A DNA stretch of 64,000 bases from Bacteroidota bacterium. Lineage in GTDB: Bacteria; Bacteroidota; Ignavibacteria; Kryptoniales; JAKASW01. The translations under genes and the position numbers were made by a program. The stretch covers positions 1 to 64,000 of the forward strand of contig JAJZVO010000015.1 of the NCBI GenBank assembly GCA_021845665.1. Reading direction: 5' to 3'. Positions 12,918 to 26,545 of this stretch are shown piece after piece; the stretch's first letter is position 1; each line of letters opens with the position of its first letter. The notes below the pieces were generated by a model that ran no database searches, was not told the origin of the DNA, and was given only the letters and a program-made list of their open reading frames with translations.

Positions 12918-13491
12918 CTGTCGCCTTAACATTCGCGGTTGCGAAAGCAGGAGGCTACCTTCCGCAGGGCAATAGCAACCGAACCAGTCATCAGTAGGCG
13001 AAGAGGCTGTATTTAGGGATCGAACTCCTGCACAGCTTAAGAAGGTGGTTGAGTCCGCCCGAAAGGGCAGACGAAAACCCGCCTTCGCGGAACGATCCCC
13101 GTCTGGAAAGGCCAGCACCACTTTGGAAGAGTCCTCTGATCGAAACGGACGTTCTACGCAGAAAAAAATCCAGCCGCTGCCTTGACTTTCAGAGACGGGG
13201 GGGCATACTTTCCAAGCATCATCGGTGATGCTCCAGCACATTCGGAATTGCAGTCGAAGCCATGGAGCGATGACGCAAACGGAGCGTTGGTTTAGAGGGA
13301 ACAGAGAGGAGAGCGAAAGATGGATAAGAGTTCGGAAGAAGAACCCCAATATACGGAATGGTATCACCGTATCCCTCAGTTTACCGATAATGAACCAGGG
13401 GACCGGTCCAAAGACATCTGAGCATTGTCTGGACGGTAACATGTAAACAAGACCGCAAGATTGCGGTTCATTGAAAAGGGAGGAAACGGAG
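12918..13491. other. Intergenic region upstream of the PorV-like pseudogene
   Basis: No gene is recognised. It contains a hairpin AGCATCA-TCGG-TGATGCT at 13215-13232 and another, ACCGCAA-GA-TTGCGGT, at 13452-13467 just before the ribosome-binding site GGGAGGAAA of the next frame. A TTGACT box at 13182 and an ATACTT box at 13205 are 17 bp apart and could be a sigma-70-type promoter, but this is weak evidence. Confidence 0.45.
13182..13210 (+). promoter_or_regulatory. Candidate sigma-70-like promoter before the PorV-like gene
   Basis: TTGACT (13182-13187), 17-bp spacer, ATACTT (13205-13210). It is followed at once by the 13215-13232 hairpin. The match is by eye only; members of this bacterial group often use other promoter consensus sequences. 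Confidence 0.25.
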
Positions 13492-14830
13492 ATGAGATAC
13501 AGAACGACGATTTGGGTAGCCTCAGCACTGCTCCTCGCTTCGGTACCAAGAGGATGGGCACAGGGCGTCGCCGGCACTATTGTGGGTTTCCTTAATTACC
13601 CTGTTGCACCAGAAATGGCGGCGAGGGGCGATGCAGGCGTGTCTGTTGTAACAAATAATGCGATGTCCGTGATTGCGAACCCCGCCCAATTGGGGATGTT
13701 GAGCATGACCAATAGTCTCTCTATCGGAACCGGTTTCGATATGCATACCGCTACCCAGACCGATACTCCTCTCAACAGGAACTTTGGGACTGCATTTGGA
13801 TTCCGGGATGCGTCTTTTTCAGTTTCCGCTGTCTCTTATGGGGCCAGGCTGAACTCTCTCTGAGAGGCGTTGCCCTCCTGCGTGGGGCTTGGGGCTTGGA
13901 CTACAATACTCATATGAGAAATTCGCATCCCAATCTCCGGTGACGCTGAGCGCCAGCCCGTTCATAATTGAAAACGAGGCTGAGCATGCCAAGGCTTTCA
14001 CCATTGGCCTGGGAATTCACTACTTCCTCAGGCTGGGGCTTGGATATTCCGTGAAGTTCATAAGTGGTGAGAACGGATACTACTTTTCGAATCTAGATCA
14101 GACAGCCCGAGATTTTGGTGCTATCCTTCAGATACCTGTCCTCCGGCTCCTCCACGGATCGCGAGATGGATCATATATTTTCGGCAAAGACATCCAACCG
14201 ATTTTCAATATTACCGCAGGCTACAGCCTAAGAAACGTCGGCGGGTACGTCCACGTGGTTAGGCCTTTGAGTGGCGAAGTGCCTCTTGCCCGCCAGGCGA
14301 ATTTTGGATGGAACTGGGAGCTTGCTTTTCGGTCAAGAGTGGCGGGTTTCAAATGGGACTGGTTCTCCTTTACTTGGGACAGAGAAGCAGCAAATTCACC
14401 TTTCAATACGGATTCAAGTCTTGTGACCAACCCCAACGGATATAGCTACTGGAATTACTTCTGGTCATACTCGAATGGTTTGGGCAGTTTCACCCCATGG
14501 AGCAACCTGATCGTCGGAAGGGGAAGCGCGAGCGTAGCTATAAGCAAAGGCTGGCAAATCGGGCTGGGAGAATTCTTGTATCTGCGGGGAGGGTCGTTGA
14601 CAAATCTGAGCCAAAATCCTTGGTCGTCGACGTTTCCTACTTCCGGATGGGGAATCAAACTGGACGGGCTTGTGAAAGCTCTCGTCTTCCTGCACGGTTT
14701 GAACGCAAATGATTCCTTCACACGGTTCATTCTGCATCACTTTAATCTGGAGTTTGATTACTGCACCGCCTCCGGTGGAGTCTTTGACACTCTCAAGCCT
14801 TTTGAAAGTCTGAATCTGGTGGTGCGGTAG
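13492..14830 (+). pseudogene. Frameshifted PorV/PorQ-like outer-membrane beta-barrel protein
   Basis: The N-terminal piece starts at the ATG at 13492 behind a good ribosome-binding site (GGGAGGAAA). It encodes a signal peptide ending in GWAQG and the PorV-type signature AARGDAGVSVVTNNAMSVIANP. The frame closes at 13861. The homologous beta-strand-rich remainder resumes in another frame from about 13889 and runs to 14830. Between them, a third frame gives LRGVALLRGAWGL, so two indels are likely, one in the CTCTCTCT tract near 13854-13861 and one in the G-rich stretch near 13884-13897. PorV/PorQ proteins serve type IX secretion and surface attachment. Assembly error is the alternative to a real pseudogene. 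Confidence 0.7.
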
Positions 14831-16098: not shown

Positions 16099-18642
16099 TC
16101 AATTCCGGCTTATGCCTTCGGTTTCGATCTTGAACTGAGCAGTTGAAGCCTGAATCTCGTCGGCAAGTCCGGCGAGCCCCTCGGCGATATTGCCGACGTC
16201 TTCCGCCTCCTGGGTTGCCTTCACGGTGTTACCGGAAATTTCGTTTATCGTGTCGGCATTCATCTTACTTATTGCGGCGACGTTGTTGATCATTTCCACC
16301 GTATGCTTCACGCTGGTGCTCAACTCTTCGGTGGCGCTCATATTCTGATCGACGACCGCCGATATCTTCTCGATCGATTTGAGCAGGCCTGCCATCGTTT
16401 TGACGACAGCGTTGTTGGCGGTTGCCATTACGTCGACCTGCTTGTTCATATTCTCCGAAGAAGAGAGAAGTTTGTTAATCGATTCTCCCGACTCGGTCGC
16501 GAGTCTCGAGCCCTCTTTCACTTTGTCGACGATCGTCTTGACGGACTTGCTGGCGTCCTCGATATCCTCTTCCACTTTGTTGATGAGGCTCGATGTTTCC
16601 TTCGTCGCCGCAGCGGAGCGTTCAGCAAGGTTCCGAACCTCATCCGCTACGACTGCAAAGCCTCTGCCGTGCTCCCCAGCCCTTGCCGCTTCGATGGCTG
16701 CGTTCAGCGCAAGAAGATTCGTCTGCTCCGCGATCTGCTCTATATTCTCTATAATACCCTCGATTCGCTCCGATTGTTTGGCCATCCCCTCTATCTTGGA
16801 AGCGAACACAGCGACCGTTTCCTCAATTTTCTTCATCTGATCGAGATTTTCCATGACGGCGCTTGCGCCGGACTTGGATACGCTGATGGCTTCGGACGAT
16901 GCGGAGACGACGGTTCGTGCGCTCGCGCTTGCCGAGTCGATCGCGCGCGATATCTCGACCGCCGATGACGACACCTTCTCCACCGCGAGTCTCTGATCGT
17001 GTGAGTCCCTGGCGATAGTGTCGATCGCAGCCGCGATCTGTTCCATGTTAGCGTTCGCGTTGCTTATGGAGAGCGCTTCTTCGTTAAGGCTCTTCGCCAT
17101 TTCCTGGATCGTGTTGGAATTATAGCTCGACACTTCGACGGACTGTTTGGCCGTCCCTGCAAGATCGTGGCTGAGGCTGAGCAGTTTCTTCGAGCGGCCT
17201 ACGAGCGCTCCGAAAATCCCGCGCAGACTCAGCGGCTCGCTGTTGAAAGTCGAAACGACTATACCTTTTTCGACCGCTTTATTGATAAAGGGGACAAGGT
17301 TCTTGTCAAATATGCCGATGCTTATCGCATCATATCTGTTCCTGATGCAATCTTCGATCGACGGGACATAAATCTCGGCGCTTACATTGATGATACCGTT
17401 GACGAACTGGCCTTTGGGGACTACCCAGTCCACCACACCGTTCACCTGCCTCAATTCTCTCGTCGCGGCATCGACGCCGGCTCTAAACACTTCCCAGAAC
17501 TTGTCGCCATCCCGGCCTAGTACCGCGATCCGGAGTGTTCTTTCACTTCTTCTTATCGGCTTGGGGCGTCTCGCAGCCATGGCCTCCGTCTCGATGATGC
17601 CTTTCCCGGGCTGCCAGAACTGCGAATAGTTCTGGGGAGTAACGACATCCATCCTCGTCAGCATTCTCGATTGTTGGGGCTGCCAGTTGGTGGTGAGCCT
17701 GTTGAAAAGGTGTATTACGGGATCGTGCCCCTGCGCGTAGACGTCCTGCGAAAGCGTCGCAGTAACGACTCCCTGCCTGACAAACTCCATCGTGTTGTCT
17801 GCCAGATCATGGCACACTACCTTGACCAGCCCCGTCTTCCCCATCTCTGCAACGGCCTTCGCAGCGCCAGCCCCTCCGTAAGTCACGTATACGCCGGAAA
17901 GGTCATGATATCTCTTCAGGAAAGTCTTCGTCTGTTCATACGTCAGCTCAAAATTCAAGTTCGTTTCGGCAATATCCAAAACGGATATGGATGGAAACTT
18001 TTCCCTCATGACATTCTGGAAGCCTTTTCGCCTGAGGTCGTGTCCGATGATATTGAACTTCTCGAGCAGGATCACGACTTTGCCTTTTCCGTTCAACGCC
18101 TTCCCCATAGCTTCGCCGCAGGCCTGGCCTTCGAGATAAGAATCGGCGCCGACGTATACGAGTCTCTGGCACGGCCTGTCCGTCGCGGAGTTGAATTCCT
18201 TCGTGGCGTCGTTAAGATGCCCGATTATCGAGTTCAACCCGCGCACCATCTCGCCGACACCCCCGTTGACGGATGAGCTTATCGTGTTGGACTCCATCTT
18301 TATTCCGGCTGTGAGATTGCCATGTGCCATCTCGGTCATGGCGCTCGAAAGTGAAACGAAATCTTTATCGGCCATTTCCTTCACTTTTCCCGAAACGAAT
18401 TTCAGCGGACCGTACACCGTAGAGTTGATATAAACGGCGAGCAATACGGCGACGATGACGCTTCCCAGTATACCAGCAGTCATCAGGATTCTTGCCCCGG
18501 ATATCGACTGCCCCCCCATTGTCGACATCGCGTCCATGAGCTGAAAATATCCTGCCGCCTCGAAGACGAAGAAGAGCAGGATCAGCGATATTCCGATGTG
18601 GAGAGAGTAGCCCTTCAGAAATTTCTTAATTCGGTTCTGCAT
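16099..18642 (-). CDS. Methyl-accepting chemotaxis protein with cytoplasmic, lobe-swapped sugar-binding-protein domain
   Basis: An 847-residue chemoreceptor. Two transmembrane helices (about residues 15-33 and 51-71) are separated by only some 18 residues, so there is no periplasmic sensor domain. A HAMP-like region follows (about 71-125). Residues 155-335 match the second lobe of type I periplasmic sugar-binding proteins ([18 protein letters not shown], then [15 protein letters not shown]). Residues 368-472 match the first lobe ([20 protein letters not shown], then [12 protein letters not shown]). The order is therefore the reverse of the normal fold. A classical signalling domain with the conserved hairpin tip ([20 protein letters not shown], then [12 protein letters not shown]) fills residues 475-847. 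It would sense an intracellular ligand and control CheA. No che genes are nearby. Confidence 0.9.
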
Positions 18643-24802: not shown

Positions 24803-24910
24803 CAGATAAAAACCTTCGTCCAAAGTATGCAAAGCAAAATAAGAGAGCAGATCATCCTGAAGGCGAAATGACATGCGTCCGGGGATCATTCAATTGCAGT
24901 AACGATTCAG

Positions 24911-24948
24911 AAAGAAAGGCTGTGGCAATTTAGGCCCAGCCTTTCTTT
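24911..24948. terminator. Bidirectional intrinsic terminator
   Basis: Perfect 12-bp arms AAAGAAAGGCTG (24911-24922) and CAGCCTTTCTTT (24937-24948) enclose a 14-nt loop. The arms themselves supply T-rich 3' ends on both strands. It lies between two convergent pseudogenes, the expected place for a shared terminator. Confidence 0.8.
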
Positions 24949-24977
24949 AATAATTCCAATCAGTCGGCTACACGGTC

Positions 24978-26545
24978 TTATCTTTTCTGGTAAGGCGGCT
25001 GCTCGGGAGCAACCGGAGGGTGATCCTTCAGCAGCTGCATCACGACCTCGATTCCCTTTTTCACGCTGCTGGTCGTTGCCCGACGCCAACTCGGCCGGGT
25101 TCTCCACCATATTGAAGTCGGGAGCCACGCCGAGCCCTTCAGCGAACCACTTGCCGTCAGGGGTATACATCCTGAAAGTAGGGACAGTAACGGTACCACC
25201 ATCGATCAGCTGCGGCGCCCCGGTAATGCCGATGAGGCCGCCCCACGTGCGCTCGCCGATAAGCGGGCCGAGCCCCGCTTCACGGAAGTAAAACGGGAAT
25301 GCATCGCCACCCGAGCCGCTCCAGCCGTTTGTCAGCATGACCTTCGGGCCGAAGTTCGCGACAGGGGGGCCAGTTCTTTCCGTCACGCACTGCCCAGAAA
25401 GCGAGCGGTTTCCAGTTGAGCATTTCGATGAACCTGTCGGGAATTTTACCGCCGCTGTTGAAACGCTCATCGATAATCAGCCCCTGTTTTTCGAACTGCG
25501 CGGTGAACTGCCGTCCGAGGTCGTTCTGGCCGGGTATGCTTGTGTCCTGGACATAAACGTATCCGATTTTTTCGCCTGTCGCCTTGTCCACCTTCTCCCT
25601 GTTGGTTTCTATCCAGGCGAGAAGCCGCAGTCTCGCTTCGTCCGCGAATTGTCTTTCTCTCCCGAACCGCTGTTCGGACCTCTAAGGTAAACCACTTTAC
25701 CGGGGACAGCCTGAAGGCCCCTGTAGTTCCCCGCTTCCGGTGGGAGGATAGCCGTGCGTTCCGCGATGCCCTGGAAATTGATCCTGATCTCCTTCGATTT
25801 TTCCGGCGGCTTCTTTTCTTCATTCTTGCCTTCGTCTGCCTTCTTCTCATCGGATCCCTACACCGCTATTGTATCGTTTTTCGGTGAGAGCGGCGAAGCG
25901 AGAGTGTCCTGGAGTGTGACCAGCGCGATCCGGGTGAAGTTTGGATATATGAATGTATCTCCCGTGTCGCTGTATACCGGATCGAAGGTATTGTTCGTCA
26001 GGAAATAGAGAGACTTGCCTTCCGGATCAAAGGACGGATTAGTGTCGCTGTAATAACCGCTCGTAACCCGATAAGCCTTTTTCTCTTTCGTATCGAAGAC
26101 ATATATACCGCTGTGCTGAATATCCATTTCTTTTGCATACGCAATGCAGCGGCTGTCCGAAGACCATGATACCGTACTCGCCCAACCGGTCGCTCCAGTA
26201 TGCCACGTACTTGCCGTTCGGAGACCACGATGGATATCTTTCCGCGACACCGGAAGAATTCGTGAGGTTTACTACATTGCCGTTCTCGGCGGGTACCGAG
26301 ATGAGTTCACCTCGCGCCTCGATTATGGCACGCTTGTCGTCGGGAGAAAGCGAATAGCTCCTTATCATACTCTCGACGTTCTCGCATTTCGGCATGATGG
26401 TGATTTCGTCGGTGACGACTTCGATTTGGACCTCATGATATTTCTCCGTCGCGAGGTCGAGCAGATAGAGTTTGCCTCCGGCTTCAAAGCCCATTTCTTG
26501 CGGCCCGACCGAAGGAAAATGAATTAGGTCCCGGCAAAAGAGCAC
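24978..26545 (-). pseudogene. Truncated, multiply broken tricorn-type S41 protease
   Basis: The minus strand carries pieces of a tricorn protease. Beta-propeller repeats come first (GGKLYLLDLATEK, RYPSWSPNGKYVAYWSDR, then SGIYVFDTKEKKAYRVTSG). A linker rich in Lys/Glu follows, then the catalytic S41 region (NGWSGSGGDAFPFYFREAG, then IGERTWGGLIGITG) and the usual proline-rich end PPVAPEQPPYQKR at 24978. An in-frame TAG lies at 25858-25860. Frameshifts are needed near 26150, 25650, 25370 and 25080. The N-terminal half is absent: homology starts only about 10 bp from the DUF190 stop codon. Intact tricorn proteins exceed 1000 residues. Confidence 0.82.

Follow-up and report, generated by a model that had tools for sequence, protein, structure and literature searches.

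The window analysed here is a stretch of 64,000 nucleotides, on whose minus strand positions 16099-18642 encode a chemoreceptor of 847 amino acids plus the stop codon. Read from the N- to the C-terminus, this receptor consists of two membrane helices, a HAMP-like segment, a type I periplasmic binding protein (PBP) domain whose two blocks are swapped, and a canonical MCP signalling domain. A hydropathy scan places the membrane helices at approximately residues 8-33 and 52-72; in nucleotide positions, with approximate boundaries, the first is mapped to 18544-18600 (about residues 15-33) and the second to 18427-18489. The loop between them has about 18 residues, in agreement with the initial annotation, which had described two membrane helices with an 18-residue loop. 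The following segment (residues 76-150; 18193-18417) forms two helices in an extended structural model of 467 residues (pLDDT 78, pTM 0.67), and the HAMP profile is matched by eight of 27 family members (best E 8.6e-7). On these grounds the segment looks HAMP-like, but the case for HAMP is weaker than the initial annotation implied, as Pfam finds no HAMP match in the receptor itself. The PBP domain begins with a block (residues 155-345; 17608-18180) that comes second in the native fold, where it runs from hinge 1 to the C-terminus (PF13407 profile 92-244; PDB 2qvc 91-258). A less conserved linker (residues 346-365; 17548-17607) leads from the native C-terminus to the native N-terminus, and is followed by the N-terminal part of the native fold, which reaches as far as the hinge strand VVSTFNSEP (residues 366-470; 17233-17547; PF13407 profile 6-89; PDB 2qvc 2-92). 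The MCP signalling part (16354-17232) has a Pfam match to MCPsignal (PF00015, residues 589-763, E 6.9e-40) and a hairpin tip of canonical sequence. In the extended model its long helix begins, with low confidence, about six residues past the hinge strand. The initial annotation had given no strand; once the gene is read on the minus strand, its interval for the binding domain fits residues 155-472.

Elsewhere in the window, at 24907-26545 on the minus strand, several overlapping frames carry pieces of a peptidase S41 and PD40 propeller gene, a pattern expected if a single tricorn-like protease gene had been broken by frameshifts or assembly errors. On the plus strand, at 13471-14830, a frameshift appears to have divided one outer-membrane-type protein into two neighbouring open frames of 130 and 313 amino acids, which have no Pfam match.

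The order of the two PBP blocks was analysed by profile searches. Peripla_BP_4 (PF13407) matches the receptor in two pieces, with 115 bits compared to a curated cut-off of 35.1, and residues 157-306 correspond to profile positions 92-244. A profile search of the genome gives the same order, profile 91-244 first and 6-89 second. When the blocks are re-joined by hand in the native order, they yield a single Peripla_BP_4 match over profile 6-244 with 135 bits. The same is seen with the best solved relative by sequence, the glucose-binding protein of T. maritima. The blocks as found cover chain 91-258 and 2-92 of PDB 2qvc and abut at the hinge, and the re-joined blocks give one colinear match over chain 2-256 with 88.6 bits. 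As a control, family profiles built in both orders were searched against 70 ordinary PBPs from the fetched genomes. The re-joined profile scored higher than the as-found order in all 70 (median 110.9 versus 83.7 bits). This count depends on the re-joined profile, with which the proteins were chosen; the two orders are nevertheless compared protein by protein. Model coverage was 0.95 for the re-joined and 0.58 for the as-found order. Moreover, the lobe-1 block lies ahead of the lobe-2 block in 70/70 ordinary PBPs, with a median gap of eight residues where lobe 1 exceeds 10 bits. The PBP domain of the receptor does not have this native PF13407 lobe order; it has the reverse one, with the second lobe first, as had been noticed from the sequence alone.

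Two Pfam stretches in the as-found protein could also mean that two unrelated or separately acquired half-domains came to lie side by side by chance. This reading is very improbable and we rejected it: the halves are complementary, do not overlap and abut at one hinge of the same homologue, they re-join to one match, the structure prediction packs them into a single domain, and the control gave the same answer in 70/70 proteins. The profile search thus returned a single domain in two parts and not a pair of unrelated domains: the blocks are adjacent halves of one Peripla_BP profile in swapped order. The receptor carries a circularly permuted type I PBP domain, and the permutation put forward in the initial annotation is borne out by both the Pfam and the PDB matches. 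The tripeptide FNS is found at both ends of the domain, at residues 150-152 and 466-468, with N151 present in 27/27 and N467 in 24/27 family members. This doubling would be in keeping with a tandem duplication as the source of the permutation, but a match of three residues is no proof.

An AlphaFold2 model of the domain, built from 17 family sequences, predicts one compact domain with a mean pLDDT of 86.1 and a pTM of 0.83, and confidence is low only at the two ends, including the N-terminal 17 residues and the helix starts. In Foldseek alignments against the PDB, which keep sequence order, ordinary PBPs among the top 50 hits align over approximately 180-241 columns. Nearly full-length alignments in this top 50 were obtained only with TpMglB-2 (364-388 columns) and 5ER3 (315 columns). 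TpMglB-2 (Tp0684) of Treponema pallidum and its 'Type Ic / Cluster Bc' relatives are natural circular permutants of the type I PBP fold (PMC4990184; PDB 5jx2, 6bgc, 6bgd). As in the receptor domain, the native N-terminal part has moved to the C-terminal end, and the two proteins share 13-14% identity in Foldseek. The cut points differ, however: in TpMglB-2 the chain is cut just before the hinge strand, so that the equivalent of N91 is N19 at the N-terminus (PMC4990184 Table 2), whereas in the receptor it is cut just after this strand and N467 is C-terminal. Unlike the receptor, TpMglB-2 is an extracytoplasmic lipoprotein of an ABC transporter with no MCP fusion (PMC4990184). In 5er3, a solute-binding protein of Rhodopirellula baltica, family profile positions 81-328 correspond to chain 29-267 in one stretch and query positions 11-71 to chain 269-330. 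By this pattern, 5er3 appears to be a further circular permutant of the type I PBP fold, cut at a third position, and a literature search found no paper on it.

MCPs work as dimers, and sequence order alone does not distinguish pairing in cis from pairing in trans. The main structural rival to a permuted single-chain domain is therefore a lobe swap between subunits, in which two binding domains would form in trans, each from the first block of one chain in the dimer and the second block of the other, the block order being an adaptation to the dimer. We consider this unlikely, because the single-chain model is compact and confident (pTM 0.83), the linker has about 20 residues, and the data on TpMglB-2, in which this fold is also permuted, are consistent with a monomer (PMC4990184). 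A permuted domain folded within one chain remains our preferred reading, and the AlphaFold2 prediction agrees with the compact two-lobed domain that the initial annotation had anticipated.

On which side of the membrane the domain lies follows from the hydropathy scan. The PF13407 proteins that serve ABC transporters are nearly all extracytoplasmic, which would speak for a periplasmic domain that senses the outside of the cell. Such a location is barely credible here and was rejected: the MCP domain must be cytoplasmic, and in all members scanned the stretch from the PBP blocks to the MCP domain is free of membrane helices; in the receptor, no hydrophobic segment follows the second membrane helix. 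Moreover, L058, a relative from an Acidobacteria MAG, has neither a membrane helix nor a hydrophobic stretch just upstream. L059 likewise scores without membrane helices, yet another frame just upstream encodes a hydrophobic stretch, so that only L058 is taken as a clean helix-free case. Nor does the receptor domain fall under the description of extracytoplasmic PF13407 proteins with a signal peptide. Thus, since no membrane helix lies between it and the MCP part and L058 has none at all, the PBP domain is cytoplasmic. The earlier proposal of a cytoplasmic location stands, and nothing in the scan assigns residues 150-475 to the periplasm.

We then considered whether the domain is likely to bind a ligand, using conservation over 27 family members with pairwise identities down to 30%. 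The residues R204 (27/27), D279 (26/27), Q299 (25/27), F382 (26/27), W383 (26/27) and N467 are kept, which we take to be, by hand assignment from known motifs, the equivalents of R141, D215, Q235, F15, F16 and D89 of the ribose-binding protein. The position of N190 in the ribose-binding protein, in contrast, is Gly in 23/27 members and its Asn is not conserved. Because this position is lost, the ligand may be other than the usual pentose or hexose. The same loss could be taken to mean that small-molecule binding has been given up and that the domain has become a spacer or a docking site for another protein. This is the main functional rival, and it too appears improbable: the six other pocket residues are kept in at least 24/27 members, and conservation is higher in the PBP blocks than in the membrane or HAMP-like parts (0.62 and 0.58 for the two blocks, 0.45 for the linker). 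The conservation of the pocket residues across 27 members suggests that the pocket is probably in use by some ligand. A receptor that senses an intracellular sugar or metabolite and is wired into chemotaxis, as initially suggested, would be in line with this.

The gene neighbourhood was surveyed as well. No sugar-related genes are evident near the receptor within the window, and no neighbour is constant across the loci of the relatives. Four loci (L057, L129, L139 and L059) have a HAD hydrolase gene close to the receptor, and four (L057, L129, L135 and L139) have one for an M23 peptidase. These recurrences are too weak to name a ligand, and the attempt to derive one from the neighbourhood was dropped.

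More than 30 receptors with the swapped-PBP architecture were found, so the block order is shared by other receptors. They occur in Kryptoniota, in other members of the class, in one Acidobacteria genome, in the phylum of L057 and on a Chloroflexota plasmid. Eight of the 13 genomes of the genus, the source genome included, have orthologues, which in the seven others are approximately 850 amino acids long; five further genomes of the class also have orthologues, and relatives are present in MAGs labelled Melioribacter. The Acidobacteria genome, the sole positive one among 347 genomes of this phylum searched, has four copies, and ten genomes of the L057 phylum have up to four copies each. The plasmid relative, from Leptolinea sp. 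HRD-7 (Chloroflexota), shows 35% identity over 757 residues and is annotated as 'hypothetical protein' (BCY19493.1). Standard annotation splits these receptors or labels them hypothetical. No relatives were found in viral contigs. The 27 permuted domains grouped together (support 95/98) in a tree that included 54 ordinary PBPs, so that a single origin is the simplest reading. The architecture represents a real family. Among the large open frames checked, none is a native-order PBP fused to an MCP domain; L092, L124 and L125 are other things. At L125:2801-5347 (G415), a Peripla_BP_4 domain in native order is attached to the C-terminal end of a family 32 glycoside hydrolase. The MCP tip of the receptors from the Acidobacteria genome and the L057 phylum (L056, L058, L059, L057, L128-L142) is non-canonical (KLLGINAAIEAAHAG, VNVLALNA), even though CheW-domain proteins occur there.

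The source genome encodes a CheW of 166 amino acids and a CheA-sized CheW-domain protein of 610 amino acids, close together on one contig (C94), as well as FlhA. It has three MCPs, two of which share the contig with the CheW/CheA genes while the swapped-PBP receptor stands alone. FlhA was unmatched in four of six tested genomes with swapped-PBP receptors. Thus, the output need not be flagellar everywhere, and in the genomes without an FlhA match the array may have a non-flagellar role.

Circular permutation of the PBP fold and cytoplasmic sensing by MCPs are each already known separately. In HemAT and Aer2, a cytoplasmic sensor domain, globin or PAS, is fused to a canonical MCP signalling domain; the receptor resembles them in having an intracellular sensing domain but differs in its bilobed sugar-binding fold. 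LacI-family regulators likewise use the type I PBP fold as a cytoplasmic metabolite sensor, although in native order and with a DNA-binding output. A LacI-type origin of the receptor domain is not favoured, as PF13407 is found in 27/27 members and the LacI-type PF00532 only weakly in 6/27. The Foldseek hits include further sensors with a type I PBP fold as input, namely Bacteroides hybrid two-component sensors (BT1754, PDB 2x7x) and XylFII-LytS (5xsj), which, unlike the receptor, are extracytoplasmic, have the native order and use a kinase output. The closest solved relatives by sequence in both blocks are structures of the CUT2-type glucose/xylose-binding protein of T. maritima (PDB 2h3h, 2qvc, 3c6q; 27-28% identity in Foldseek), but this protein has the native order, is extracytoplasmic and serves transport. 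Finally, engineered permuted or domain-insertion PBP biosensors couple ligand closure to an output module (PMC4974565, PMC6335823); these are man-made, whereas the receptor family is natural and old. The literature searched, whose partial coverage is not proof of absence, contained no report of a cytoplasmic permuted PBP, cut at the hinge, within a chemoreceptor.

Taken together, we propose, with a probability of roughly 0.7, that the protein is a chemoreceptor anchored in the membrane, whose permuted CUT2-type sugar-binding domain detects an intracellular small molecule and, by closing at the hinge, drives the signalling helix. The permuted domain sits in line between the HAMP-like segment and this helix and, because the cut is at the first hinge crossing, entry and exit of the chain are both at the hinge. 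The two lobes would close on a sugar or sugar-like metabolite bound in the cleft. The resulting hinge movement would shift or rotate the signalling helix a few residues beyond the hinge strand, and the moved helix would in turn change CheA activity through the canonical tip. A broader version of this proposal, for which we see about even odds, is that the receptors form a natural family with one origin, act as chemoreceptors for intracellular metabolites and use the permutation at the hinge itself as the coupling device, lobe closure being read directly by the signalling helix as in the engineered permuted sensors. In the proposed receptor, a sugar-binding fold of the transport type would be re-used inside the cell as the sensor of an MCP, and the placement of both chain ends at the hinge suggests a reason why circular permutation may have been selected. 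The family would thus provide a natural, testable counterpart of the engineered permuted-PBP sensors.
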